Translations under genes and position numbers: made by a program | Shown here: positions 5,955-17,491 of the stretch, piece after piece | How the letters are laid out: each line of letters begins with the position of its first letter | Numbering within the stretch: position 1 is the first letter of the stretch | From: Oxalicibacterium solurbis | GTDB lineage: Bacteria; Pseudomonadota; Gammaproteobacteria; Burkholderiales; Burkholderiaceae_D | Reading direction: 5' to 3' | Length of the DNA: 64,000 nt | Assembly (NCBI RefSeq): GCF_014635845.1 | Contig: NZ_BMDP01000003.1 | Coordinates: forward strand, 1-64,000 | Notes under the pieces: model-generated | What the model saw: only the letters and a program-made list of their open reading frames with translations | Databases searched by the model: none | What the model was told of the DNA's origin: nothing

Positions 5955-6704
5955 CTACAATGCGCGTCCTATGAAGACGCTGCCGGCCAGCAGACAGAGC
6001 ACACCGACGAATCGCCGTACCGCAATTTCGTCGACACGATGGGTAACATAGGCGCCCAGCAAGACGCCCAGGATCTCGAAAGCCGTGATGAAGAAAGCCA
6101 GGCTGTAATCGATATGGCCAAGATGCAGATTCGCGATCGAGCCGGACAAGGCGCCGACGATCTGCAGCACCTGCCCGATACCGATCGACATCAGGATCGA
6201 AAAACCGAACAGTGCCATCAACGGAACCGATAGCGCCGGCCCGCCGATGCCGGTCAGACCGGACAAGAAGCCGGTCAATGCACCGATACCGAACAGCGCC
6301 AGCCAGCGGCCGCGTGCGCCATACGGCAGCCGCAACACATACTGACCGCCTCTCGCCGCCAATGCATAAATGCCCGCAGCCAGAATGACGATACCGAGCA
6401 CCAGCGACAGCATCGCGGCGCTCAGCAGCGAACCGGTCCATGCGCCACCAAATCCCGTCATGGCCGCGCCGAGACACACCGGCACCGCCGTATTCCAGTC
6501 TATGGTTCCCTGCCGGTGAAAATAGAAGGCGCCGACCAGTCCGGTAAAGATGAAGGTGAACAGCGCCGTCGCCATTCCCTGATGCAGTGTCAGGCCGGTC
6601 AACAGCACCAGTGCCGGCGCCATGAAAAACCCGCCGATCCCGGCAGCGCCGACCAATGCGCCGATTCCGATGGAAATCAGGATCAAGCTGACATAGGTCG
6701 TCAT
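5955..6704 (-). CDS. TauE/SafE-family sulfite/sulfonate exporter
   Basis: A 249-residue integral inner-membrane protein with about eight hydrophobic segments in the two-fold repeat typical of TauE/SafE (DUF81). The signature glycine-rich loops are present: GALVGAAGIGGFFMAPALVL in the first half and LTGFLSGLTGIGGPALSVPL in the second. Members export sulfite, sulfoacetate or other organosulfur anions, though many are uncharacterised. It has its own leader after etfA, containing a TATAAT box and a 22-bp element shared with the promoter of the AprA-like operon, so it is probably co-regulated with that cluster. In taurine and sulfonate catabolism such proteins remove toxic sulfite. The sulfur role here is inferred from family and context. 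Confidence 0.9.
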   Translation of the reverse strand: MTTYVSLILISIGIGALVGAAGIGGFFMAPALVLLTGLTLHQGMATALFTFIFTGLVGAFYFHRQGTIDWNTAVPVCLGAAMTGFGGAWTGSLLSAAMLSLVLGIVILAAGIYALAARGGQYVLRLPYGARGRWLALFGIGALTGFLSGLTGIGGPALSVPLMALFGFSILMSIGIGQVLQIVGALSGSIANLHLGHIDYSLAFFITAFEILGVLLGAYVTHRVDEIAVRRFVGVLCLLAGSVFIGRAL

Positions 6705-6773: not shown

Positions 6774-7733
6774 TCAGGCCGCCTTCTCCAGATCGCCTCC
6801 CGCTGCTACCAGCGCCTGCACCAGTTCCGGCACGATCTGGAACAGGTCACCGACCAGTCCGTAATCGGCCACGCCAAAGATGGGCGCATCCGGGTCCTGG
6901 TTGATCGCGACGATCACGCGGGAATCCGTCATGCCGGCCAGATGCTGGATGGCGCCGGAAATGCCGATGGCGATGTAGAGTTCGGGCGCGACCACCTTGC
7001 CGGTCTGCCCCACCTGCAGATCGTTCGGCACGAAGCCGGCGTCGACAGCGGCACGCGACGCGCCGACGGCAGCGCCAAGACGATCGGCCAGCGGATCGAG
7101 AATCCGGAAATTTTCCTGCGATCCAAGACCGCGCCCGCCGGCGACCACCACGCGCGCTGCCGTCAGTTCCGGCCGGGCCGAAACCGCCAGTTCGCGCGAC
7201 AACAGACGTGTCTTGCCAGCGTCCGCCGCGACCGCGACTGCCTCGATGACGGCATTGCCACCATGGGCCGCCTGTACAAAACCGGTCGTACGCACGGTCA
7301 GCACACACGGGCTGTCCTGTGACTGCACGGTCGCGATTGCATTACCGGCATGAATCGGTCGCTCGAAGATATCGTGAGCCTGCACACAGGTAACGTCCGA
7401 CAGTTGGCCGACACCCAGCAACGCCGCCACACGCGGCAGCACGCTCTTGCCCTGCGCGGTGGCCGCCGCCACCACATGCGTATAGTGCGCAGCCAGCGCA
7501 AACGCTTGTGCCGCAAGATTTTCAGGCAGGCCATCTGCGAGATGCGGCGCATCGGCCAGCAACACTTTCTCCACGCCGGCAACGCCGGCGGCCGCCTGCG
7601 CCACGGCCTGGCAGCCGGCGCCCGCCACCAGCACATGCACAGCGCCACCGCATTGCGCCGCTGCGGTAATGGCATGCAGCGTGGCCGGATGCAGCGCTGC
7701 ATTGTCGTGTTCGGCGAGAACCAATGTCGTCAT
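6774..7733 (-). CDS. etfA: Electron transfer flavoprotein alpha subunit
   Basis: A 319-residue EtfA/FixB protein. The C-terminal FAD domain is canonical: [62 protein letters not shown] and [20 protein letters not shown]. With EtfB it forms a soluble FAD/AMP heterodimer that passes electrons between flavoprotein dehydrogenases or ferredoxins and the quinone pool. It follows etfB by 40 bases, is in normal EtfB-EtfA order, and is the last gene before tauE. Placed with a ferredoxin reductase and an AprA-like oxidoreductase, this copy is probably dedicated to that system rather than to fatty-acid oxidation. Whether the genome has another etf pair cannot be seen here. Confidence 0.95.
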
Positions 7734-7773
7734 GAGGATTCCTTTCCTTTCGTCGTTCCGTTCGGGGCATGCG

Positions 7774-8532
7774 TTACAACACGCCGGCTTCGTCGCGCAG
7801 CCGCGCCATCAGCGTCGCCACATCGTCGACACGCACGCCGGGCTGGCGCTGCGGTGGCTCGGCCACCTTCAGCGTCGTCCAGCGCGGTGCGATGTCGGCG
7901 CCGAGCTCGGCTGCCGGTAGCGTTTCCAGCGGCTTCTTTTTCGATTTCATCAGGTTCGGCAGGCTGACAAAGCGCGGCTCGTTCAGGCGCAGATCCGCCG
8001 TCAATACCGCCGGCAGCCTCAGTTCCAGCCGCTCGATGCCGCCGTCGATCTCGCGCACGACCTCGATTGCGCCGCCATCCGGTGCCGCCATCGACACTTG
8101 CGACACCGCCGTCGCCTGCGGCCAGTCCAGCAGCGCTGCCAGCATCTGGCCGGTCTGGTTGCAATCGTCGTCGATCGCCTGCTTGCCGAGGATCGCCAGT
8201 TGCGGCTGTTCGCGCGCGACGATCGCCGCCAGCAGGCGCGCCACCGCCAGCGGCTGCAATTCGACATCGGTTTCGACCAGGATCGCGCGGTCCGCGCCGA
8301 TCGCCAACGCAGTGCGCAAGGTGTCCTGCGAGGCCGCCGTACCGCAGGAAACCGCAATCACTTCGCTTGCCCTGCCCGCTTCCTTCAGTCGCACCGCCTC
8401 CTCGACGGCGATCTCGTCGAACGGATTGATCGCCATCTTCACGTTGGCCAGCTCGACACCGCTGCCATCCTGCCGCACGCGGACCTTGACATTGGCATCC
8501 ACCACCCGCTTCACCGGGACCAGTACTTTCAT
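7774..8532 (-). CDS. etfB: Electron transfer flavoprotein beta subunit
   Basis: A 252-residue EtfB/FixA protein starting [19 protein letters not shown], with the AMP-binding features [38 protein letters not shown] and the family signature [22 protein letters not shown]. It is near usual length. It partners the EtfA encoded 40 bases downstream. A 119-base gap separates it from the upstream ferredoxin-NADP reductase gene. That gap contains a small hairpin (CCGCAT-cgtcg-ATGCGG, 8604-8620) without a T-run, so transcription probably continues through. Confidence 0.95.
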
Positions 8533-8651: not shown

Positions 8652-9425
8652 CTACTTGTCGACGAAGGCGCGTTCGATCACGTAGTGGCCGGGATGGCTC
8701 ATGTTGCCCTCGGCCAGGCCGTGCGCTTCCAGCACATCGACCGTATCCTTCAGCATCGCCGGACTGCCGCACAGCATGAAGCGGTCATCGGCCGCATCGA
8801 AGGCCGGCACGCCAAGCTGTTCGAAGAAGGCTTCGCTTTCCAGCAGCACGGGAATGCGCCCCTGGTTGCGGAACGGTTCACGCGTGACAGTCGGGTAATA
8901 GATCAGCTTGTCCGCCACCATCTCGCCCAGCAATTCATGCTGCGGCAATTCATCGACGATGCGCTGCTGGTAGGCCAGTTCGTGCACATGGCGGCAGCCG
9001 TGCACCAGGATGATCTTTTCGAACTTCTCGTAGACATCCGGATCCTGGATGATGCTCATGAACGGCGCAAGACCGGTGCCGGTACCGAGCAGGTACAGCC
9101 GCTTGCCGGACAGCAGATTCTGCGACAGCAGCGTGCCCGAGGCCTTGCGGCCGACGAGAATGCTGTCGCCGACCTGGATGTTCTGCAGGCGCGAGGTCAA
9201 CGGACCGTCCGGCACCTTGATGCTGAGGAATTCGAGCTGATCGTCGTAGTGCGGGCTGACCATGCTGTAGGCACGCATCAGCGGCTTGCCTTCGACATCG
9301 AGGCCGATCATCGCGAACTGTCCGCTCTGGTAGCGAAAGCTGGATTCGCGTGTCGTCGTGAAGGAAAACAGCCGGTCCGTCCAGTGATGGACCGACAAAA
9401 CTTCCGCAGAATAGAAATTGCTCAT
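8652..9425 (-). CDS. fpr: Ferredoxin-NADP+ reductase (bacterial FPR type)
   Basis: A 257-residue FAD-dependent reductase. The FAD-binding motif is MRAYSMVSPHYDD (RxYS type). The NADP-binding part includes LYLLGTGTGLAPFMSIIQD and RFMLCGSPAML, and the C-terminal segment is MSHPGHYVIERAFVDK as in subclass II FPRs. It moves electrons between NADPH and ferredoxin or flavodoxin. Two ferredoxin genes (13090-13419 and 14376-14609) lie in the same operon, so they are likely partners. The gene starts 12 bases after the DUF971 stop. The symbol is by family; a second housekeeping fpr may exist elsewhere. Confidence 0.92.
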   Translation of the reverse strand: MSNFYSAEVLSVHHWTDRLFSFTTTRESSFRYQSGQFAMIGLDVEGKPLMRAYSMVSPHYDDQLEFLSIKVPDGPLTSRLQNIQVGDSILVGRKASGTLLSQNLLSGKRLYLLGTGTGLAPFMSIIQDPDVYEKFEKIILVHGCRHVHELAYQQRIVDELPQHELLGEMVADKLIYYPTVTREPFRNQGRIPVLLESEAFFEQLGVPAFDAADDRFMLCGSPAMLKDTVDVLEAHGLAEGNMSHPGHYVIERAFVDK

Positions 9426-9437
9426 CGTTGCATCCTT

Positions 9438-9773
9438 TCAGGAAAAGCGAACCGCATGCACCGCACCGTCGCCATCACTGCCGAAAGCCAGTTCGTGCAG
9501 ATAAGCCCACGGATAAATGCCGCGATCGTGATCGTCGGAAAAAAACAGTTGCACGCCGACCGAGCCGACCGGCGCGATATCCACCAGCGCGACATCCTGC
9601 TCCACCGCCGGATCGGCATGTGTCTTGCGCCGCAGGCTTTCGCAGACGCTGCAACGGCAGGCCGCGCGCAATCTTGCATAAGGCACGCTCGCCCTGCGTC
9701 CGTCCCATTGCAATTGCAATGCCCGGTTGGCTGCATGCAGCATCATCTCGCTCGGCAAGGTGTCACAGGACAT
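9438..9773 (-). CDS. DUF971 (GBBH-like N-terminal domain) protein
   Basis: A 111-residue protein of the DUF971 family, the fold found at the N-terminus of gamma-butyrobetaine hydroxylase. Diagnostic segments are LQLQWDGRRASVPYARLRAACRC and IAPVGSVGVQLFFSDDHDRGIYPWAYLHEL. The cysteines in ACRCSVCESLRRK resemble the metal-binding CxxC-type site of this family. DUF971 proteins are linked to iron-sulfur proteins and are sometimes fused to Mrp/ApbC, so a role in Fe-S protein function fits this cluster. ATG at 9773 overlaps the ABC ATPase stop by 11 bases, indicating translational coupling. A longer in-frame start upstream would overlap the ATPase gene further and is not favoured. Confidence 0.85.
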   Translation of the reverse strand: MSCDTLPSEMMLHAANRALQLQWDGRRASVPYARLRAACRCSVCESLRRKTHADPAVEQDVALVDIAPVGSVGVQLFFSDDHDRGIYPWAYLHELAFGSDGDGAVHAVRFS

Positions 9774-10644
9774 GGCGCACACCCTCCGGTCCGATTTCGG
9801 TGCTGAGGCCAGCACAGCCACCTTCGTCCAGCTCGCCGCCCATCGCCGCCAGGCTTTCCTCGCGGATCAGCCGGCGTATCGTGCGCAGCAGGCCGGTGAA
9901 TTCCGGCGACTCCATCATCTCCGGCTTGCGCGGGCGCGGCAGCGGCACCACGATCTCGGCCTTCACGCGGCCCGGCCGCGCTGTCATCACGTAGATGCGG
10001 TCGGAGAGGAAGATGCCCTCTTCGATATCGTGCGTGATGAACAGTACTGACAGCCGCAGCCGCTGCCACATGTTGGTCAGGATTTCCTGCATCACGGTGC
10101 GCGTCTGCGCATCGAGCGCACCGAACGGCTCGTCCATCAGCAGCACCTGCGGGCTGGTCGCCAGCGCACGCACGATGCCAACGCGCTGCCGCATGCCGCC
10201 CGACAATTGCGACGGATAGTGATTCTCGAACGCCAGCAGACCGGCCAGTCCCAGCAGCGTGCGCGCCTGCGATTCGCGCTGCGCCGCCGACATGCCCTGC
10301 ATCTTCAGGCCGAACTCGACGTTCTTGCGTACCGTCATCCACGGGAACAGCGAATACTGCTGGAACACCACGCCGCGATCCGCACCGGGACCGTCGATCG
10401 TCTTGCCGTCCAGCGTCAGCACGCCGCTGTTGATCGGCGTAAAGCCCGCCACCGCATTCATCAGCGTCGACTTGCCGCAACCGGACGGCCCGATGATGGA
10501 CACGAACTCGCCCGGCTGCACATTGATCGACACCGACTTGACCGCCTGCACGGTGGTGCCGCGCGACGTGAACGCGATACTGACGTCGCGCGCGTTCACA
10601 TGTCCGGCAGATGCATTCATCTGCGCATTCATCTGTGCACTCAT
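9763..10644 (-). CDS. ABC importer ATPase, nitrate/sulfonate/taurine type
   Basis: A 293-residue ATPase of the NrtD/SsuB/TauB family. Walker A GPSGCGKST is at 52-60, the Q-loop in VVFQQYSLFPWMTV, the signature LSGGMRQRVGIVRALA, Walker B VLLMDEPFGALD and the H-loop in LFITHDIEEGIFLSDR. The C-terminal 40 residues exceed the usual 250-260 length. It energises import through the permease encoded immediately upstream. Its ATG overlaps the permease TGA (ATGA), with GGAGG six bases before it. The substrate cannot be read from the ATPase. The short Met/Asn/Ala-rich leader (1-15) may be non-native if translation starts later. Confidence 0.93.
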   Translation of the reverse strand: MSAQMNAQMNASAGHVNARDVSIAFTSRGTTVQAVKSVSINVQPGEFVSIIGPSGCGKSTLMNAVAGFTPINSGVLTLDGKTIDGPGADRGVVFQQYSLFPWMTVRKNVEFGLKMQGMSAAQRESQARTLLGLAGLLAFENHYPSQLSGGMRQRVGIVRALATSPQVLLMDEPFGALDAQTRTVMQEILTNMWQRLRLSVLFITHDIEEGIFLSDRIYVMTARPGRVKAEIVVPLPRPRKPEMMESPEFTGLLRTIRRLIREESLAAMGGELDEGGCAGLSTEIGPEGVRHVL

Positions 10645-11582
10645 TTACGTCCTCCCGCAGCAGCACCGATCCATGGCGTCGACCATTTGGCGCACAACTG
10701 GATCACCTTGCTGCACAACAGACCGAGAATGCCGATCGTCAGCATGCCCAGCGCGATCTTCGGATACTCGATCAGCGAATAGGATTCCCAGGTGAAGTAA
10801 CCGATGCCGAACTGGCCCGAGATCATCTCGGCAGCGATCAGCGACACCCACGCCACGCCCATGCCGACCGCGAGGCCGGTGAAGATGTGCTGCAGCGCGC
10901 CGGGCAGAATCACGTACAGCATGATGTCCTTCTCCTTCGCCCCCAGGCTGGCCGCGGCGCGGAACAGTACGTCGTCGATCTCTTCCACGCCGTGGATCGT
11001 GTTGAGCAGGATCGGGAAGAAGGCGCCGATGAAGGTGATGAACACGATGCTGCCCTCGTTGCTGGGCCAGATCATGATCGCCATCGGCACCCAGGCGATC
11101 GCCGGGATCGGACGGAAGATTTCCATTGCCGGCATCGTCAGCGAACGGAACAGCCGGTAGCGGCCGACCAGGATGCCGAGCGCCACGCCCGTGACCGCCG
11201 CGATGAAGAAACCTTCCAGGATGCGGCGCAGGCTCATCCAAACATTGGTCAGGAACTTGGTCGACTGGTTGACCTCCAGCATCGTCTGCCAGACGTCGCC
11301 CGGCGTCGGGATATTGCTGAAGCGGACATAGAAATCCCAGCGATACTTCGTGGCCAGATACCACAACAGCAACACGCTGCCGATCGAGACCGCACCCAGC
11401 AGATATTGCATCCAGGTCGATGCCAGCATCGTTCTCCATTGCAATCCCTGCTGCGGCGACAAGGCATCGCTCATGCCACCCTGGATCGCCTGCAATGCCG
11501 GCCGGGATGCCGGAGCACTTTTCTTGTGGGCCGCTGGCGCCGCCACTGGCGGCGACTCCACGGCTCGATCGGTCAGAGCCAT
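10641..11582 (-). CDS. ABC importer permease, nitrate/sulfonate/taurine type
   Basis: A 313-residue inner-membrane permease of the BPD_transp_1 family (SsuC/TauC/NrtB-like). About 50 N-terminal polar residues precede the first membrane segment (LLGAVSIGSVLLLWYLATKY). The EAA loop that docks with the ATPase is RAAASLGAKEKDIMLYVILPGALQHIFTGLAVGMG, read as separate segments. IPAIAWVPMAIMIW is typical of the nitrate/sulfonate group. It lies two bases after the binding-protein stop and overlaps the ATPase gene by four bases. Confidence 0.93.
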   Translation of the reverse strand: MALTDRAVESPPVAAPAAHKKSAPASRPALQAIQGGMSDALSPQQGLQWRTMLASTWMQYLLGAVSIGSVLLLWYLATKYRWDFYVRFSNIPTPGDVWQTMLEVNQSTKFLTNVWMSLRRILEGFFIAAVTGVALGILVGRYRLFRSLTMPAMEIFRPIPAIAWVPMAIMIWPSNEGSIVFITFIGAFFPILLNTIHGVEEIDDVLFRAAASLGAKEKDIMLYVILPGALQHIFTGLAVGMGVAWVSLIAAEMISGQFGIGYFTWESYSLIEYPKIALGMLTIGILGLLCSKVIQLCAKWSTPWIGAAAGGRK

Positions 11583-11584
11583 GA

Positions 11585-13036
11585 TTATTTCTCCATCGTT
11601 GCAAGCACTTGCTCATACGAAACGACGCTGCCGCCGTTCTTCTTTGCATACGCTTCCGCATCCTTCTTCAGCAGAAAGGGCACAACGTCGAGCTTGGCCG
11701 GCGTACTGCCGGACATGGCATAGAACGCCTTGCCGCCGAAGACCTTGATGCCCAGTGCATGGTCGTACACATACGACACAGCAATTTTCTTGCCTGCCTT
11801 CTGGTATTGCGCAATGCCCTTGAAGGCACACACGGGAGAGCTGACCGGCACGATATCGCCGCCATCGATCCAGATTTCCGCTGCGTTCGCCGGATCGCTG
11901 ATCTCCTTGTTGCAGATCGGATCATGTCCGCTGATGTTGTAATAGTTTTTCAACGATTTCTTCTGGGCATCGTAGTCGAGGCCGTCTTCCTTGAAGGCTT
12001 CGCGCACGTATTTCTCGTCGACCCAGGCATTCACGTCCAGCGGCTTCACGCGATTGAGTTTTTCCAGCACCGCATGATCGGTCTTGATCGCATCGACCAG
12101 GATCGGCTTGATGCTCGGATCGAGCGTATGGATGCCGCCCGGGCCGAGGAACAGATAGGCCACTTCCTTCTCGATGCCGGTCCACTTCTCGATATCTGTT
12201 GCTGCCTGCTTCGGATTCTTGCGCAGCCAGTCGTTCGCTGCCATCAGCGCCTTGATGTAGGCCACCACCACTTCCGGATATTTTTCGGCGAAATCCTTGC
12301 GCACCACCACACCATGAAAGGTCGGCAGCTTGGTTTCAACGCCGTCGAAAATCTTGCGCGCAAAGCCGCGATACGGCAGCAGGTCAGGGAAAGGCACGAA
12401 GTCGGCATGCGCATCGATCTTCTTTTCCTGCAGATTGGTCGTGCCGACTTCCGGCGACTGGCTCACCAGATTCCAGTAGTCGCCAGTCCAGCCGCGCGAC
12501 TGCATCGCCTGCAGCAGCATGCCGTGCGCCGCAGAACCGAACGGCACCGACACCGTCTTGCCCTTCAGATCGGATAACTGATAGTACGGACTGTCCTTGT
12601 GCACCACCACGCCATTGCCGGCGCCGAACTGGTTATACGCAATGATGGCGATCAGCTCGGTGGCATTGCCGCTGCTGTTCTGCCCGATCGCACCGTTCAC
12701 CAGCAACGGATAGTCGCCCATCATGCCGATCTGGATCTTGTTGGCCATCATGCCGTTGGTGATCGGCGGACCGGAGGTCGAGTTCTGCCATTCCAGCTTG
12801 AAATCGATGTTGGCGTACTTGCCGGTCTTCGGCAGATACTTTTCCAGCAGGCCGAGTTCCTTGATGACGACACCGCCCGTCACCGTGTTGGTCGTCGTGT
12901 TCTGCGTACCGATGCCGATGGTGACCACTTCCTTCGCGTGGGCACCGGCGGCAAACAGCAGCGCCGCGGATGAAACCAGAAAACGCGCGACCAGTTTGGT
13001 GCTGCCGCTACGTGCCGTCATATGCAAGATCGTCAT
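11585..13036 (-). CDS. ABC substrate-binding protein with C-terminal NosL-like domain
   Basis: A 483-residue periplasmic protein, far longer than the usual 320-340. A signal peptide (about 1-35, ending AAGAHAK) is followed by an SsuA/NrtA-type binding domain (about 36-365) with IQIGMMGDYPLLVNG and LKGKTVSVPFGSAAHGML. From about residue 370 (bases 11588-11929) the sequence changes character: HDPICNKEISDPANAAEIW, SSPVCAFKGIAQYQ, YVYDHALGI, GKAFYAMSGS and DVVPFLLKKDAEAYAKKNGG. This order matches the NosL/NosL-like copper-site accessory fold. Cys375 and Cys403 could bind a metal or thiol. The fusion is unusual and might add metal-dependent capture. It is followed by the permease gene after two bases. 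Confidence 0.88.
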   Translation of the reverse strand: MTILHMTARSGSTKLVARFLVSSAALLFAAGAHAKEVVTIGIGTQNTTTNTVTGGVVIKELGLLEKYLPKTGKYANIDFKLEWQNSTSGPPITNGMMANKIQIGMMGDYPLLVNGAIGQNSSGNATELIAIIAYNQFGAGNGVVVHKDSPYYQLSDLKGKTVSVPFGSAAHGMLLQAMQSRGWTGDYWNLVSQSPEVGTTNLQEKKIDAHADFVPFPDLLPYRGFARKIFDGVETKLPTFHGVVVRKDFAEKYPEVVVAYIKALMAANDWLRKNPKQAATDIEKWTGIEKEVAYLFLGPGGIHTLDPSIKPILVDAIKTDHAVLEKLNRVKPLDVNAWVDEKYVREAFKEDGLDYDAQKKSLKNYYNISGHDPICNKEISDPANAAEIWIDGGDIVPVSSPVCAFKGIAQYQKAGKKIAVSYVYDHALGIKVFGGKAFYAMSGSTPAKLDVVPFLLKKDAEAYAKKNGGSVVSYEQVLATMEK

Positions 13037-13089: not shown

Positions 13090-13419
13090 CTAACTCATCT
13101 CCATCAAGTGCTCCCGCTTGTCCTGTTTCTCCGCCCAGGTATCCGCTTCCGGCAACGGTTCCGTCGATTGCACGATCAGCGGCCACTGCTTCGCCAGCCG
13201 TGCATTCAGTTCCACGTATTCGCCCTGTTCCGCCGGCAGCATCTTTTCGTCATACACGGCCTCGACCGGACATTCGGCGACGCACACGCCACAGTCGATG
13301 CAGACTTCCGGATCGATCACCAGGAAGTTCGGCCCTTCATGGAAACATTCAACCGGGCAGACCGCGACGCAGTCCGTGTACTTGCAGCCGATGCACGACT
13401 CTCCGACCACGTGTGTCAT
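13090..13419 (-). CDS. fdxA: Seven-iron ferredoxin (FdxA type)
   Basis: A 109-residue ferredoxin. Cysteines 9, 12, 17, 21 and 25 lie in CIGCKYTDCVAVCPVECFHEG (read as CIGCKY then TDCVAVCPVECF), and 40, 43, 46 and 50 lie in CIDCGVCVAECPVEAV. This is the classic arrangement for one [3Fe-4S] and one [4Fe-4S] cluster. The C-terminal tail (LPEADTWAEKQDKREHL) is also typical. It carries low-potential electrons and is a plausible partner of the reductase at 8652-9425. Its ATG overlaps the HEAT gene stop (ATGA) with GGAGG six bases upstream, so the two are translated together. Confidence 0.95.
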   Translation of the reverse strand: MTHVVGESCIGCKYTDCVAVCPVECFHEGPNFLVIDPEVCIDCGVCVAECPVEAVYDEKMLPAEQGEYVELNARLAKQWPLIVQSTEPLPEADTWAEKQDKREHLMEMS

Positions 13420-14366
13420 GACGCGCCTCCCTGCATGTGAATGCTGGTGATGGCGAGCTTCGACAGCTTGCGCACGTCTGAATCGGCATCGTGTTGCGCC
13501 GCTTCGAGGAACGGGATCGCGCGCACGTCACCGATCTCGCCCAGTGCAATCACGGACTCCTTGCGCAGATTGCTGATCGGATGCTGCAGCGCCTCGCACA
13601 AGGCCGGCACCGCCGCCTTCGCCTTCAGCTTGCCGAGACTGCGCGCGGCCTTCACGCGTACCTGCCAGAATTCGTCTTCCATCGCCTGGATCAGATCCGG
13701 CGCGCCAAGTGCCAGGCCGAGCTTGCCCATCGTCGCCGCGGCTTCCTCGCGCACCTGCCATGCCGCATCGGCCAGCACGCGACTCAGCGTCGGCTGGATG
13801 CTGATCGCCGACGAATAGCCGAGCGCACCGATGGCGACGCGCCGCACTTCCTGATCCGGATCGTTGGCAGCAGCATTGGTCAAGGCGCCAATCGCTTCCG
13901 GCTTCTTCAGGTAGCCGAGCACGCCGACCGCTTCGCGCCGCACCTGCGGATTGCGGTCTTCCAGCGCCACCATCGCCGGCGAGAAGGCTTCATCCACCCG
14001 CAATGCGCGTACCGCGCGCAGTGCATCGGCCTTGACCTGCGGACTGCCGTCCGACAGATACGGCAGCAAGTGCACAGCCGAGGCCGGCTCCTTCAGCTCG
14101 GCCAGCGTGATCGCCGCCGCCTGCCGCACTTCGGCATCCGAGTCCTTCAGCAACGGCACCAGCGCCGCCAGCGCTTCCGGCTCTTCATAGCCTTCGATCG
14201 CCTTCGCCGCCTCCAGCCGGACGCCGGCGTCCGGGTCGGCCATCGCCGTCACCAGCAGCGGCACGATGTCGTCTTCCTCCTCGGAATACGGCAGGTCGAG
14301 CACCGCGATGCGACGCACACCGGGATCGTCGCTCTGCAATCTGTCGTGAATAGTGTTCGCAAGCAT
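13416..14366 (-). CDS. HEAT-repeat (PBS-lyase-like) scaffold protein
   Basis: A 316-residue all-helical protein built of about ten HEAT-like repeats of roughly 31 residues. Each carries a D-x-x-VR-x-x-A core, for example DPDAGVRLEAAKAI, DSDAEVRQAAAITL, NPQVRREAVGVLG, DPDQEVRRVAIGALG and DSDVRKLSKLAIT. No signal peptide or membrane segment is seen. Such proteins are protein-binding scaffolds or, in cyanobacteria, bilin lyase relatives. It lies between two ferredoxin genes, nine bases after one and overlapping the other by four, so it probably binds or assembles the AprA-like/ferredoxin complex. No enzymatic activity is suggested. Confidence 0.9.
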   Translation of the reverse strand: MLANTIHDRLQSDDPGVRRIAVLDLPYSEEEDDIVPLLVTAMADPDAGVRLEAAKAIEGYEEPEALAALVPLLKDSDAEVRQAAAITLAELKEPASAVHLLPYLSDGSPQVKADALRAVRALRVDEAFSPAMVALEDRNPQVRREAVGVLGYLKKPEAIGALTNAAANDPDQEVRRVAIGALGYSSAISIQPTLSRVLADAAWQVREEAAATMGKLGLALGAPDLIQAMEDEFWQVRVKAARSLGKLKAKAAVPALCEALQHPISNLRKESVIALGEIGDVRAIPFLEAAQHDADSDVRKLSKLAITSIHMQGGAS

Positions 14367-14375
14367 GCTGCCTCC

Positions 14376-14609
14376 TCAACGCACCAGATACGGGATGTTC
14401 ACGTGCACGGCGCCGGTCGGGCAGTCCTGCTCGCAGGGCATGCAATACCAACATTCGTCGAACTTCATGAATGCCTTGTTGGACACCATGTCGATGGCCA
14501 GCACGTCGAGCGGACAAACATCGACACAGACGGTGCAGCCCTTCTCGGCGATGCATTTCGATTGATCGACGACGACCGGGGCCTGGGTACGGGTGGTTGC
14601 AATGGTCAT
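14376..14609 (-). CDS. AprB-like small dicluster 4Fe-4S ferredoxin
   Basis: A 77-residue protein with eight cysteines in two groups: 19, 25, 28 and 32 (spacing C-x5-C-x2-C-x3-CP) and 53, 56, 59 and 63 (C-x2-C-x2-C-x3-CP). It should hold two [4Fe-4S] clusters. The second motif, ECWYCMPCEQDCPTGAV, resembles adenylylsulfate reductase beta (AprB), where CW precedes the cluster. True AprB is about twice as long, with a C-terminal arm that wraps AprA; that arm is absent here. It lies 15 bases after the AprA-like gene, the same order as aprA homologue plus iron-sulfur partner, and is the obvious electron acceptor or donor for it. Confidence 0.9.
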   Translation of the reverse strand: MTIATTRTQAPVVVDQSKCIAEKGCTVCVDVCPLDVLAIDMVSNKAFMKFDECWYCMPCEQDCPTGAVHVNIPYLVR

Positions 14610-14624
14610 GATGGTTTCCCTCGT

Positions 14625-16352
14625 TTAGTGTTGGCTGCCGCCGGCGACACGCAGGCGTTGATAGGCCGCTTTTTCCTCGTCGTTCAGCTCGACGATGTAC
14701 GGTTCGATCTCGCGTTTGCGGAAACGCATCCTGCCGTCCGTGCCCTTGCCGACGTTGGTGTGGCAGAACCAGTCGGCATCGTTCTTTTCCGGATGATCGA
14801 CGCGCAGGTGATAGAGACCCCAGCGGCTTTCCTCGCGGAACATCGAGGCACGCGCCGCCAGTTCGGCGCAGTCGCGGATCGTGCTGGCTTCCATCGCGCG
14901 CATCAGTTCGTGCGGATTCTCCGCACTGATGTCATGCAGGTCGTCGCTGATTTCACCGAAGCGTTCCAGCGCGATTTCCATCTTGCGGGTGATCTTCGGC
15001 GGCTGCAGGTAATCGTTGACGATGCGGCGCGTCTTGTATTCGACCTGGAACGGCGTCAGCCCTTCGCTGCGCGACAGCGGTGCGGCGATGCGCTTACGTT
15101 CGGCTTCGATCATGTCGGTGTTGATCACCGGATCGCCCTTGCCGGACACATAGTCGGCTGCGTTCTCGCCGCAGAACTTGCCGTAGACGAACGCACCCAG
15201 CATGTAGTTGTGCGGAATGCTGGCGCAGTCGCCGGCTGCATACAGACCGGGAATCGAGCACTCGCCCTTTTCATTGGTCCAGATGCCGGACGCACTGTGA
15301 CCGCTGCAGAAGCCGATTTCCGAAATGTGCATCTCGACCGCCTTGTAGCGATAGTCGTTGCCGCGCTTTTCGTGAAAACGTCCGCGACTCGGCCGCTCGT
15401 TCGTGTGCAGGATGTGCTCGATCTCGGCGATCGTTTCTTCCGCCAGATGGTCAAGCTTCAGGAAGACAGGACCGCGACCGCCTTCGAGTTCGTTGTAGAA
15501 CTCCAGCATCATCTGGCCGCTCCAGTAATCGCACTCGATAAAACGCGATCCCTGCGAATTGGCCGTGAAGCCTCCGAACGGTCCCGTCACATAGGCACAG
15601 GCAGGGCCGTTGTAATCCTTGATCAGCGGATTGATCTGGAAACATTCGAGGTTGGTCAGCTCCGCACCGGCGTGATATGCCATCGCATGGCCGTCGCCGG
15701 AATTGGTCGGATTCTCGTAGGTGCCGAACAGGTAACCGGAAGCCGGCAGGCCGAGACGGCCGGCGGCGCCCGTGCACAACACGACCGACTTCGCCTTGAT
15801 CACGTAGAAATCCGCAGTACGGCAGTCGAAGCCCATGACGCCGGCGATCTCGCCGTTGGTGCCGGTAATCAGGCGCGTGGCGACCACGCGGTTCGTGATA
15901 TCGACACGCTGGCGTTTCAGTTGCCGATACAGCACCTTCTTCATGTGGTGCCCTTCCGGCATCGGTAACACGTAGCTGCCGAGGTGATGCACCTTGCGCA
16001 CCGCATAATCACCGGTCTCGTCCTTCTCGAACTTCACGCCCCAGCGATCCAGTTCCTGGATCATGTCGAAGCTGTTCGCCGCATAGGCATAGACCGCCTT
16101 CTGATCGACGATGCCATCGTTGGCGACGGTGATTTCCTTCGTGTATTGTTCCGGCGTCGCGTGGCCGGGAATGACGGCATTGTTCAGGCCGTCCATTCCC
16201 ATCGAGATCGCGCCGCTACGCTTGACGTTGGCTTTTTCCAGCACCAGCACGCGTAATTTCGGATTCTTTTCCTTCGCCTTGACAGCTGCCATCGGCCCGC
16301 CTGTTCCGCCGCCGACGATCACAATGTCGTATTCCAGTTCGATGGTCTTCAT
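14625..16352 (-). CDS. AprA-like / fumarate-reductase-type flavoprotein
   Basis: A 575-residue FAD oxidoreductase of the FRD/SDH flavoprotein superfamily, in the branch containing adenylylsulfate reductase alpha (AprA). The N-terminal dinucleotide motif IVGGGTGGPMAAVKAKEKNP is at about 12-31. Further markers are KRSGAISMGMDGLNNAV, SVVLCTGAAGRLGLPASGY, GDGHAMAYHAGAEL and the second FAD contact IPGLYAAGDCASIPHNYMLGA. True AprA is longer (about 620-660), so substrate specificity may differ. Known activities of the branch are two-electron reactions such as APS/sulfite interconversion. It heads the operon, with an AprB-like ferredoxin directly downstream. No signal peptide is present, so it acts in the cytoplasm. 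The sulfur substrate is inference. Confidence 0.85.
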   Translation of the reverse strand: MKTIELEYDIVIVGGGTGGPMAAVKAKEKNPKLRVLVLEKANVKRSGAISMGMDGLNNAVIPGHATPEQYTKEITVANDGIVDQKAVYAYAANSFDMIQELDRWGVKFEKDETGDYAVRKVHHLGSYVLPMPEGHHMKKVLYRQLKRQRVDITNRVVATRLITGTNGEIAGVMGFDCRTADFYVIKAKSVVLCTGAAGRLGLPASGYLFGTYENPTNSGDGHAMAYHAGAELTNLECFQINPLIKDYNGPACAYVTGPFGGFTANSQGSRFIECDYWSGQMMLEFYNELEGGRGPVFLKLDHLAEETIAEIEHILHTNERPSRGRFHEKRGNDYRYKAVEMHISEIGFCSGHSASGIWTNEKGECSIPGLYAAGDCASIPHNYMLGAFVYGKFCGENAADYVSGKGDPVINTDMIEAERKRIAAPLSRSEGLTPFQVEYKTRRIVNDYLQPPKITRKMEIALERFGEISDDLHDISAENPHELMRAMEASTIRDCAELAARASMFREESRWGLYHLRVDHPEKNDADWFCHTNVGKGTDGRMRFRKREIEPYIVELNDEEKAAYQRLRVAGGSQH

Positions 16353-16762: not shown

Positions 16763-17491
16763 TCAACGCATGATTTTCATCTTGTACCTGAATCGTTCTG
16801 CCGGGTAATACAGATACTCGAATACCAGCGGATTGTTTTCCGATGCATAGGTCAGGCGTTCGATGCACAGGATCGGAGAGCCGTTCGCCACCCGCAAACG
16901 TTCCGCCACATCGGCACTGGCCGACGTCGCCTCGATTTCGAGATCGGCCGAATGCAGCGGCTGACGCAGCGCGTTTTCGAGCAGGGAAAACAAGTCTTTC
17001 TCGCGCAGGTTTTTCTCGTTCAGTTTCGTGCCGACTTCATGTCGCACCCACGAATAATCGATGGAAACCGGATCGCGATTCAGATAACGCACGCGCCGGA
17101 TTTCCGTCACATCCGATCCGTCCGCAATACCCAGCTTGCTGCAAATCAGGCTGCCGGCCTTCACTGTCGACAGGCCGAACACGTCGGAGTGCGTTTCGTG
17201 CCCCTGCTGGCGCATCGCCTCGCCGAATCCCTGCAGGTGCATCAGCTCCTGCGACACGCTGGGCGCTGCCACAAAAGTACCTTTGCCATGCACCTTGAAC
17301 AGCAGCCCCTCCTTCTGAAGATCGTTCATCGCCTGGCGTACCGTGATGCGGCTGACACCGAACGCATCGATCATTTCCCGTTCGGATGGCAGGCGCTCGT
17401 GTGCGGCATAGGTGCCGTCAAGGATCTTCGCGCGCAGCGCTTCCCGAATCTGGATGTAGAGAGGAAGCGAGGAAGAAGGTGCAAGTGGCAT
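16763..17491 (-). CDS. GntR-family regulator, HutC subfamily (UTRA domain)
   Basis: A 242-residue repressor-type regulator. The N-terminal winged helix (about 10-75) has YIQIREALRAKILDGTYAAH, RLPSEREMIDAFGVSRITVRQAM and GLLFKVHGKGTFVA. The C-terminal UTRA ligand domain (about 95-240) has VTEIRRVRYLNRDPVSIDYSW, SADLEIEATSAS and ILCIERLTYASENNPLVFEYLY. HutC-type proteins sense small pathway metabolites. The gene lies upstream of the AprA-like operon in the same direction, separated by a 410-base control region, and is the obvious local regulator. Its own leader contains a palindrome (17526-17538), suggesting autoregulation. Confidence 0.92.
   Translation of the reverse strand: MPLAPSSSLPLYIQIREALRAKILDGTYAAHERLPSEREMIDAFGVSRITVRQAMNDLQKEGLLFKVHGKGTFVAAPSVSQELMHLQGFGEAMRQQGHETHSDVFGLSTVKAGSLICSKLGIADGSDVTEIRRVRYLNRDPVSIDYSWVRHEVGTKLNEKNLREKDLFSLLENALRQPLHSADLEIEATSASADVAERLRVANGSPILCIERLTYASENNPLVFEYLYYPAERFRYKMKIMR

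Follow-up and report, generated by a model that had tools for sequence, protein, structure and literature searches.

Sulfate esters and sulfonates are described as the major organic sulfur forms of soils (PMC4267179), and several known systems resemble portions of the locus reported here. NosL proteins (Pfam PF05573) are built from two beta-beta-alpha-beta repeats, according to PMC7558416 and PMC6530538, the second of which gives a Cys-X-Met motif, the proposed copper site, and one further methionine as strictly conserved. The Sec-assisted organometallic (SAO) system includes a MerB-like lyase (PMC13188914). Among flavoprotein-ferredoxin enzymes, that of Methanothermococcus reduces PAPS to sulfite, and its authors propose that FAD N5 attacks the sulfur (PMC10322725).

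We analysed a window of 64,000 nucleotides from Oxalicibacterium solurbis in which a substrate-binding protein with an additional C-terminal domain is encoded within a set of genes on the reverse strand. The features are:

5955..6704 (-), TauE/SafE-family (sulfite exporter) membrane protein
6774..7733 (-), electron-transfer flavoprotein alpha subunit
7774..8532 (-), electron-transfer flavoprotein beta subunit
8652..9425 (-), ferredoxin-NADP reductase-like protein; best NCBIfam model PRK10926, 162 bits against a cut-off of 390
9438..9821 (-), protein with a DUF971 / GBBH-like N-terminal domain; start uncertain
9763..10644 (-), ABC ATPase; best NCBIfam model SaoA, 266 bits against a cut-off of 360
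10641..11582 (-), ABC permease (BPD_transp_1); best NCBIfam model SaoP, 150 bits against a cut-off of 295
11585..13036 (-), substrate-binding protein, 483 aa: secretion signal judged by eye, SsuA/TauA-type domain at about residues 35-350, linker, NosL-fold domain
11588..11929 (-), NosL-fold domain, residues 370-483, by hhalign, Pfam, AlphaFold2, Foldseek and VIA-align
13090..13419 (-), FdxA ferredoxin; NF045490 over cut-off
13416..14366 (-), HEAT-repeat protein
14376..14609 (-), dicluster 4Fe-4S ferredoxin, 77 aa, AprB-like (3gyx_B, E 7e-10); under 80 aa and so outside the first ORF list
14625..16352 (-), AprA/PAPS-reductase-alpha-like FAD flavoprotein; NCBIfam PRK08275 over cut-off
16763..17491 (-), GntR/UTRA-family regulator, upstream of the set

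Within the open-licence literature, we found no published account of the fusion or of the gene set.

A binding protein with a C-terminal NosL fold

The initial annotation had read the 483-aa ORF at 11585-13036 (-) as an ABC binding protein fused to a NosL-like domain, and the motifs it quoted are found at 11588-11929, corresponding to residues 370-483. In the N-terminal part, residues 35-278 match binding-protein families of the NMT1 type, and the SsuA model TIGR01728 scores 120.7 bits (E 7e-35), below its cut-off of 163.5. The AlphaFold2 model of the full-length protein (pLDDT 87.8, pTM 0.87) finds its best structural matches in TauA and SsuA (TauA 6ssy, E 1e-20). The locus shares with TauA/SsuA systems the N-terminal two-thirds of the binding protein and the adjacent permease and ATPase, but differs from them in scoring below the family cut-offs, in the extra domain and in having AprAB-like or sulfatase partners.

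For the C-terminal domain, the Pfam NosL model PF05573 gives 20.5 bits (E 6.4e-4) against the whole protein, below the 24-bit cut-off, and 25.4 bits, above it, when the domain is scanned alone. A search of the host genome with the same model returned 24.5 bits for the frame of this protein and no other match. Scanned singly, 63 of 68 domains from the fusion family match Pfam NosL at E <= 0.01, and a profile-profile comparison of these 68 domains with 16 NosL sequences using hhalign gave a probability of 97.8 % (E 7.9e-13, 104 columns); the 16 references are the strongest PF05573 matches (109-167 bits) among 143 genomes of the class and were taken as NosL by score. When PDB sequences were searched with the domain by sequence alone, four weak matches came up, none of them to NosL.

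The structural comparisons are in line with the profile results. Modelled alone (AlphaFold2, pLDDT 90.5), the domain's elements form two beta-beta-alpha-beta repeats. Foldseek returned just five PDB matches at E <= 0.001, all of them NosL (7og7, TM 0.72, and four NosDFYL entries), and VIA-align superposed the prediction on NosL 7og7 with Z 13.4 (rmsd 2.5, 113 residues). The organomercurial lyase MerB (3f0o) was also matched, with Z 8.6 (rmsd 3.5, 105 residues); the MerB family is absent from the Pfam matches of the 68 fusion members. The agreement of profile, profile-profile and fold results rules out a chance resemblance: the C-terminal domain of the 483-aa protein has the NosL fold, and on the fold matches of both the domain and the full-length model, the original identification was right.

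The ATPase and permease have their nearest NCBIfam relatives in the SAO system, whose MerB-like lyase has a fold related to that of the domain. The locus nonetheless departs from that system, as the SaoX, SaoP and SaoA models score 16, 150 and 266 bits against the window's proteins, with none reaching its cut-off (300, 295 and 360, respectively). A search of the host genome for SaoL gave no match, and its controls were silent too.

Distribution of the fusion protein

With the 483-aa protein as query, tblastn matched 430 plasmid records, 41 of which cover at least 80 % of it; Variovorax, Paraburkholderia, Methylobacterium, Pseudanabaena, Leptolyngbya and rhizobia are among the best plasmid matches. 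Genome contigs encode at least 547 related stretches. Our locus comparison comprises 85 loci, namely five plasmid loci taken from the full-length matches and the best 80 of the at least 547 genome stretches. All 86 rows compared carry the NosL-domain fusion, a count that is not a frequency, because the rows were chosen by whole-protein similarity and the sample leans to close kin and domain-bearing proteins. The initial annotation had called such fusions a non-standard architecture; this view did not hold up, since every row compared is fused and the kin of the protein range from Cyanobacteria to Proteobacteria. At E <= 1e-60, the binding protein is present in 10 of 116 sampled genomes of the window's family and in two of six listed genomes of its genus, the host itself included, marking it as an accessory trait.

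Two individual records deserve mention. A copy from a record titled Frankia sp. RB7 (L081) is nested among Bradyrhizobium on the tree, so that the record is perhaps mislabelled or contaminated. One relative of the domain (G362:C6:112967-113272) contains a single in-frame TAG, and is perhaps a pseudogene or the product of a sequencing error.

Two alternative gene sets beside one importer

The importer genes accompany the binding protein almost throughout, with a permease in 84 and an ATPase in 82 of the 85 loci. By their other neighbours, 65 loci, the window's included, are of a flavoprotein type and 16 of a sulfatase type, with three holding an incomplete flavoprotein set and one holding neither. 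The two types differ in gene content, in counts that ignore kinship between loci. The small ferredoxin and the HEAT-repeat protein have kin in 65/65 flavoprotein-type versus 0/16 sulfatase-type loci. FdxA (46/65), the Fpr-like reductase (38/65), DUF971 (56/65) and Etf (10/65) are each found in 0/16 sulfatase-type loci, and at least one of FdxA, Fpr and Etf occurs in 60/65 versus 0/16. The anion transporters also differ: SulP is present in 15/16 sulfatase-type loci versus 0/65 of the flavoprotein type, in which YeiH (33/65) and TauE (13/65) occur instead, each being found in 0/16 sulfatase-type loci. YeiH or TauE is seen in 37/65 flavoprotein-type loci versus 0/16, and the remaining 28/65 show neither.

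In the sulfatase type, the motif CTPTR is present in 16/16 loci, and a gene for the sulfatase-activating enzyme FGE in 15/16, versus 1/65 flavoprotein-type loci (L062, a weak match). The sulfatase mostly lies close behind the ATPase on the same strand, with a gap of 9-135 bases in 13 of the 14 loci (out of 16) for which it was computed, and of 1743 bases in one. As mechanically called, 10/16 sulfatases begin at the sulfatase core with no signal peptide apparent by eye, suggesting that the enzyme is probably cytosolic. Under a 45 % coverage filter, both modules occur together in 0/85 loci; one of the 16 sulfatase-type loci (L050) does contain a flavoprotein gene, cut by the edge of the locus.

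Several further genes near the importer were observed. The EtfBA pair of the window (6774-8532, -) lies at the end of the set. In Pseudanabaena (L003:12251-14266 (-)), the importer is adjoined by a 671-aa LysR regulator with weak C-terminal matches to binding-protein families, which perhaps senses the importer's substrate; this LysR-SsuA-like protein has no NosL match. In addition, clustering showed a protein, about 1186 aa long and in parts similar to the NAD(P) glutamate synthase beta subunit, to recur near the importer in 17 loci (e.g. L034:13305-16862 (+), which scores 590 bits against PRK06567, with a cut-off of 1072); it is possibly an electron supplier.

At least three changes of the sulfatase label on the tree

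On a tree of the 86 binding proteins, at least three changes are required to explain the sulfatase label (a single change in 0/200 bootstrap trees), and a single clade of the 16 sulfatase-type proteins is rejected with p-AU 2e-58. Each of the three could represent either a gain or a loss. When independent pairs only are considered, SulP tracks the sulfatase in two to three of three pairs and YeiH/TauE differ in 0/3, a test that cannot reach significance with three pairs.

The separation of the modules extends to the genome level. The binding protein is single-copy in 15/15 sulfatase-type genomes at E <= 1e-60, and in 13 of these 15, no flavoprotein is matched at E <= 1e-150; the other two hold one. 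In G389, the genome of locus L050, there is one binding-protein gene with the sulfatase, and the flavoprotein lies about 9 kb further; in the sulfatase-type genome G399, the flavoprotein is about 150 kb distant on the same contig. Conversely, a sulfatase match at E <= 1e-60 is lacking in 21 of the 22 flavoprotein-type genomes examined, including that of the window, and one holds a sulfatase of 43 % identity. The flavoprotein and sulfatase modules therefore alternate near-exclusively beside one importer.

Loss of the copper methionines and the fate of a cysteine pair

The fusion domains have in common with NosL the fold with its two repeats, the cysteine of the Cys-X-Met motif and the core residues Y422, D425, A437, F454, A460 and G468, with D425 kept in 68/68 fusions. 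They differ in being attached to a binding protein, in residues that are newly fixed (D372, W389 and S400 in 68/68, K431 in 66/68) and in the methionines. The methionine of Cys-X-Met is present in 16/16 NosL and absent from 86/86 fusions, and the second invariant one, also present in 16/16 NosL, falls in a gap in 68/68 fusions. The label 'NosL' is thus misleading as a statement of function, because a fold kept without its copper methionines is common to the importer family. The host genome likewise has no match to the nitrous oxide reductase NosZ with the models TIGR04244 or TIGR04246 (controls matched, though none over cut-off); as it also encodes no other NosL, we rejected, for this host, a role of the domain in maturing nitrous oxide reductase.

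Cys375 (11912-11914) aligns with the cysteine of the Cys-X-Met motif, which is Cys in 13/16 NosL, and Cys403 (11828-11830) with an acidic position (Asp or Glu in 16/16). Equivalents of both are present in 83/86 rows and both are absent in L003, L004 and L006; in a broader set of 13 rows, both are present in five and both absent in eight. A single cysteine occurs in 0/86 and 0/13 rows, so that the two are kept or lost as a pair, a pattern compatible with either a disulfide or a site made of two thiols; a disulfide in the periplasm would be as likely as a metal site. The pair is missing from whole branches, and we therefore dropped it as a defining mark of the domain. With both cysteines absent in 8/13 rows of the broader set, they cannot bear a role common to the family, and a two-cysteine metal role is possible in the Cys-bearing branch only.

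These observations bear on the suggestion, made in the initial annotation, that metal or thiol chemistry accompanies substrate capture. In its full form, the domain would be a working site for copper or another soft metal, and metal held by Cys375 and Cys403 would help to capture a thiol- or metal-bearing substrate. The alignment of both cysteines with NosL positions and their joint retention are consistent with such a site, as are the SaoA- and SaoP-like transporter subunits and the fold match to MerB, but both invariant methionines are missing and most rows of the broader set lack the cysteines altogether. A Cad-type metal transporter gene (PF03596) adjoins the set in 4/16 sulfatase-type loci, lying upstream of the binding protein (L002:7133-7741 (+), L061, L068 and L086; over the PF03596 cut-off in L002 and under it in L086); however, these four loci are one branch of the tree, and the gene occurs in 0/65 flavoprotein-type loci. 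Furthermore, the host has no NosZ match, and the recurrent neighbours that could be named handle sulfur oxyanions or electrons. The metal or thiol hint thus retains the Cad-type neighbours and is weakened by the residue losses, and we consider a working metal site very unlikely.

A flavoprotein-ferredoxin pair related to AprAB and PAPS reductase

Among solved structures, the flavoprotein is closest to the alpha subunit of the Methanothermococcus PAPS reductase (8a8o_A, E 1e-59), with AprA next; the bit scores are 205 for PAPS reductase, 145 for AprA, 83 for succinate dehydrogenases and 76 for fumarate reductases. The 77-aa ferredoxin matches AprB (3gyx_B) at E 7e-10, in third place after two polyferredoxins with the best E-values, and 8a8o_C at E 8e-5. 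Both proteins score below the NCBIfam aprA/aprB cut-offs.

Active-site positions were compared using AprA residue numbers read off the alignment with the flavoprotein. Asn74 of AprA is kept as N57 in 65/66 flavoproteins, with one gap, and the histidine of a GH motif, H352, is present in 66/66; it is aligned with the GH of 8a8o and faces a gap in the AprA alignment, and may correspond to the active-site histidine H398 of AprA. Arg265 of AprA, presumably the active-site arginine, is Leu243 in 66/66 flavoproteins, and Trp234 is Tyr212 in 66/66. These two replacements point to a substrate other than APS or PAPS, and perhaps to another reaction as well. The pair thus resembles PAPS reductase (8a8o) and dissimilatory AprAB in combining a flavoprotein with a dicluster ferredoxin and in retaining the Asn at the N74 position and, in the alignment with 8a8o, the GH motif, but differs from them at R265 and W234 and in being tied to an importer, a HEAT-repeat protein and, mostly, genes for NADPH/ferredoxin supply. 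Judged by sequence, it is a two-subunit relative of AprAB/PAPS reductase with a predicted different substrate.

The direction of electron flow can be argued from the neighbours. Because an Fpr-like reductase and FdxA lie beside the flavoprotein in most loci, we infer that electrons flow in. An alternative is that the flavoprotein acts on the organic part of the substrate in the manner of a fumarate reductase or dehydrogenase, with the ferredoxin and Etf carrying electrons away and sulfur being released elsewhere. The NCBIfam assignment of the flavoprotein, PRK08275, is indeed that of a fumarate reductase/succinate dehydrogenase flavoprotein subunit, the AprA arginine is replaced, and the window's set includes EtfBA. 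Yet Etf is found in only 10/65 loci, the paired ferredoxin resembles AprB, the flavoprotein itself scores closer to PAPS reductase and AprA than to succinate dehydrogenases or fumarate reductases, and the module alternates with a sulfatase. Action of the flavoprotein on the organic part is, in our judgement, distinctly unlikely.

Returning to electron inflow, Fpr and FdxA are absent from the sulfatase-type loci, and a sulfatase needs no electrons; the simplest reading would be that both types handle one sulfate ester, cut reductively in the first and hydrolytically in the second.

A proposed route for organic sulfate esters

We propose that the importer takes up an organic sulfur oxyanion, most likely a sulfate ester, that one of two interchangeable modules releases the sulfur, and that the NosL-fold domain aids capture or docking; we give this reading a probability of roughly 45 %. 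The SsuA/TauA half would grip the ester (R-O-SO3-) in the periplasm. The NosL-fold domain would be a recruited scaffold devoid of the copper methionines, most likely serving substrate recognition or docking on the transporter, and Cys375-Cys403 would probably be a stabilising disulfide in this branch. As the same domain-bearing protein serves both modules, we infer that the domain's job lies in capture or transport, not in later chemistry. In loci of the window's type, NADPH would supply electrons, by way of the Fpr-like reductase and FdxA, to the AprAB/PAPS-reductase-like pair, whose reductive cleavage of the S-O bond would yield ROH and sulfite; in other genomes, the formylglycine sulfatase would hydrolyse the ester to give sulfate. 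The TauE/YeiH-type or SulP-type transporters would then handle the released anion.

Relatives of SsuA and TauA bind sulfonates, not sulfate esters, which counts against the ester as substrate. Correspondingly, the substrate might be a sulfonate whose C-S bond is opened in a reductive desulfonation by the flavoprotein module, the sulfatase-type loci having switched substrate. Among solved structures, the binding half is closest to those of taurine and alkanesulfonate binding proteins, and L004 and L005 have, within 10 kb, genes annotated for sulfonate uptake or as SsuD. On the other hand, formylglycine sulfatases are not known to act on C-S bonds, yet one accompanies this importer, with its label having changed at least three times on the tree, and AprA and PAPS reductase cleave S-O, not C-S. 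On balance, we regard a sulfonate as a rather unlikely substrate.

Taking the sulfate ester as the preferred substrate, the locus may represent an undescribed route, in which an importer with a re-purposed NosL-fold domain would feed an AprAB-like 'ester-sulfate reductase' that cuts the S-O bond with NADPH-derived electrons and delivers sulfite directly, so that no ATP need be spent on activating sulfate; the importer's link to its module, reductase or sulfatase, would have changed several times. This fuller scheme is possible, if on the unlikely side. With an APS-reductase-like module alternating with a sulfatase behind one importer, whether bacteria can reduce organic sulfate esters to sulfite can be tested directly by genetics and biochemistry.
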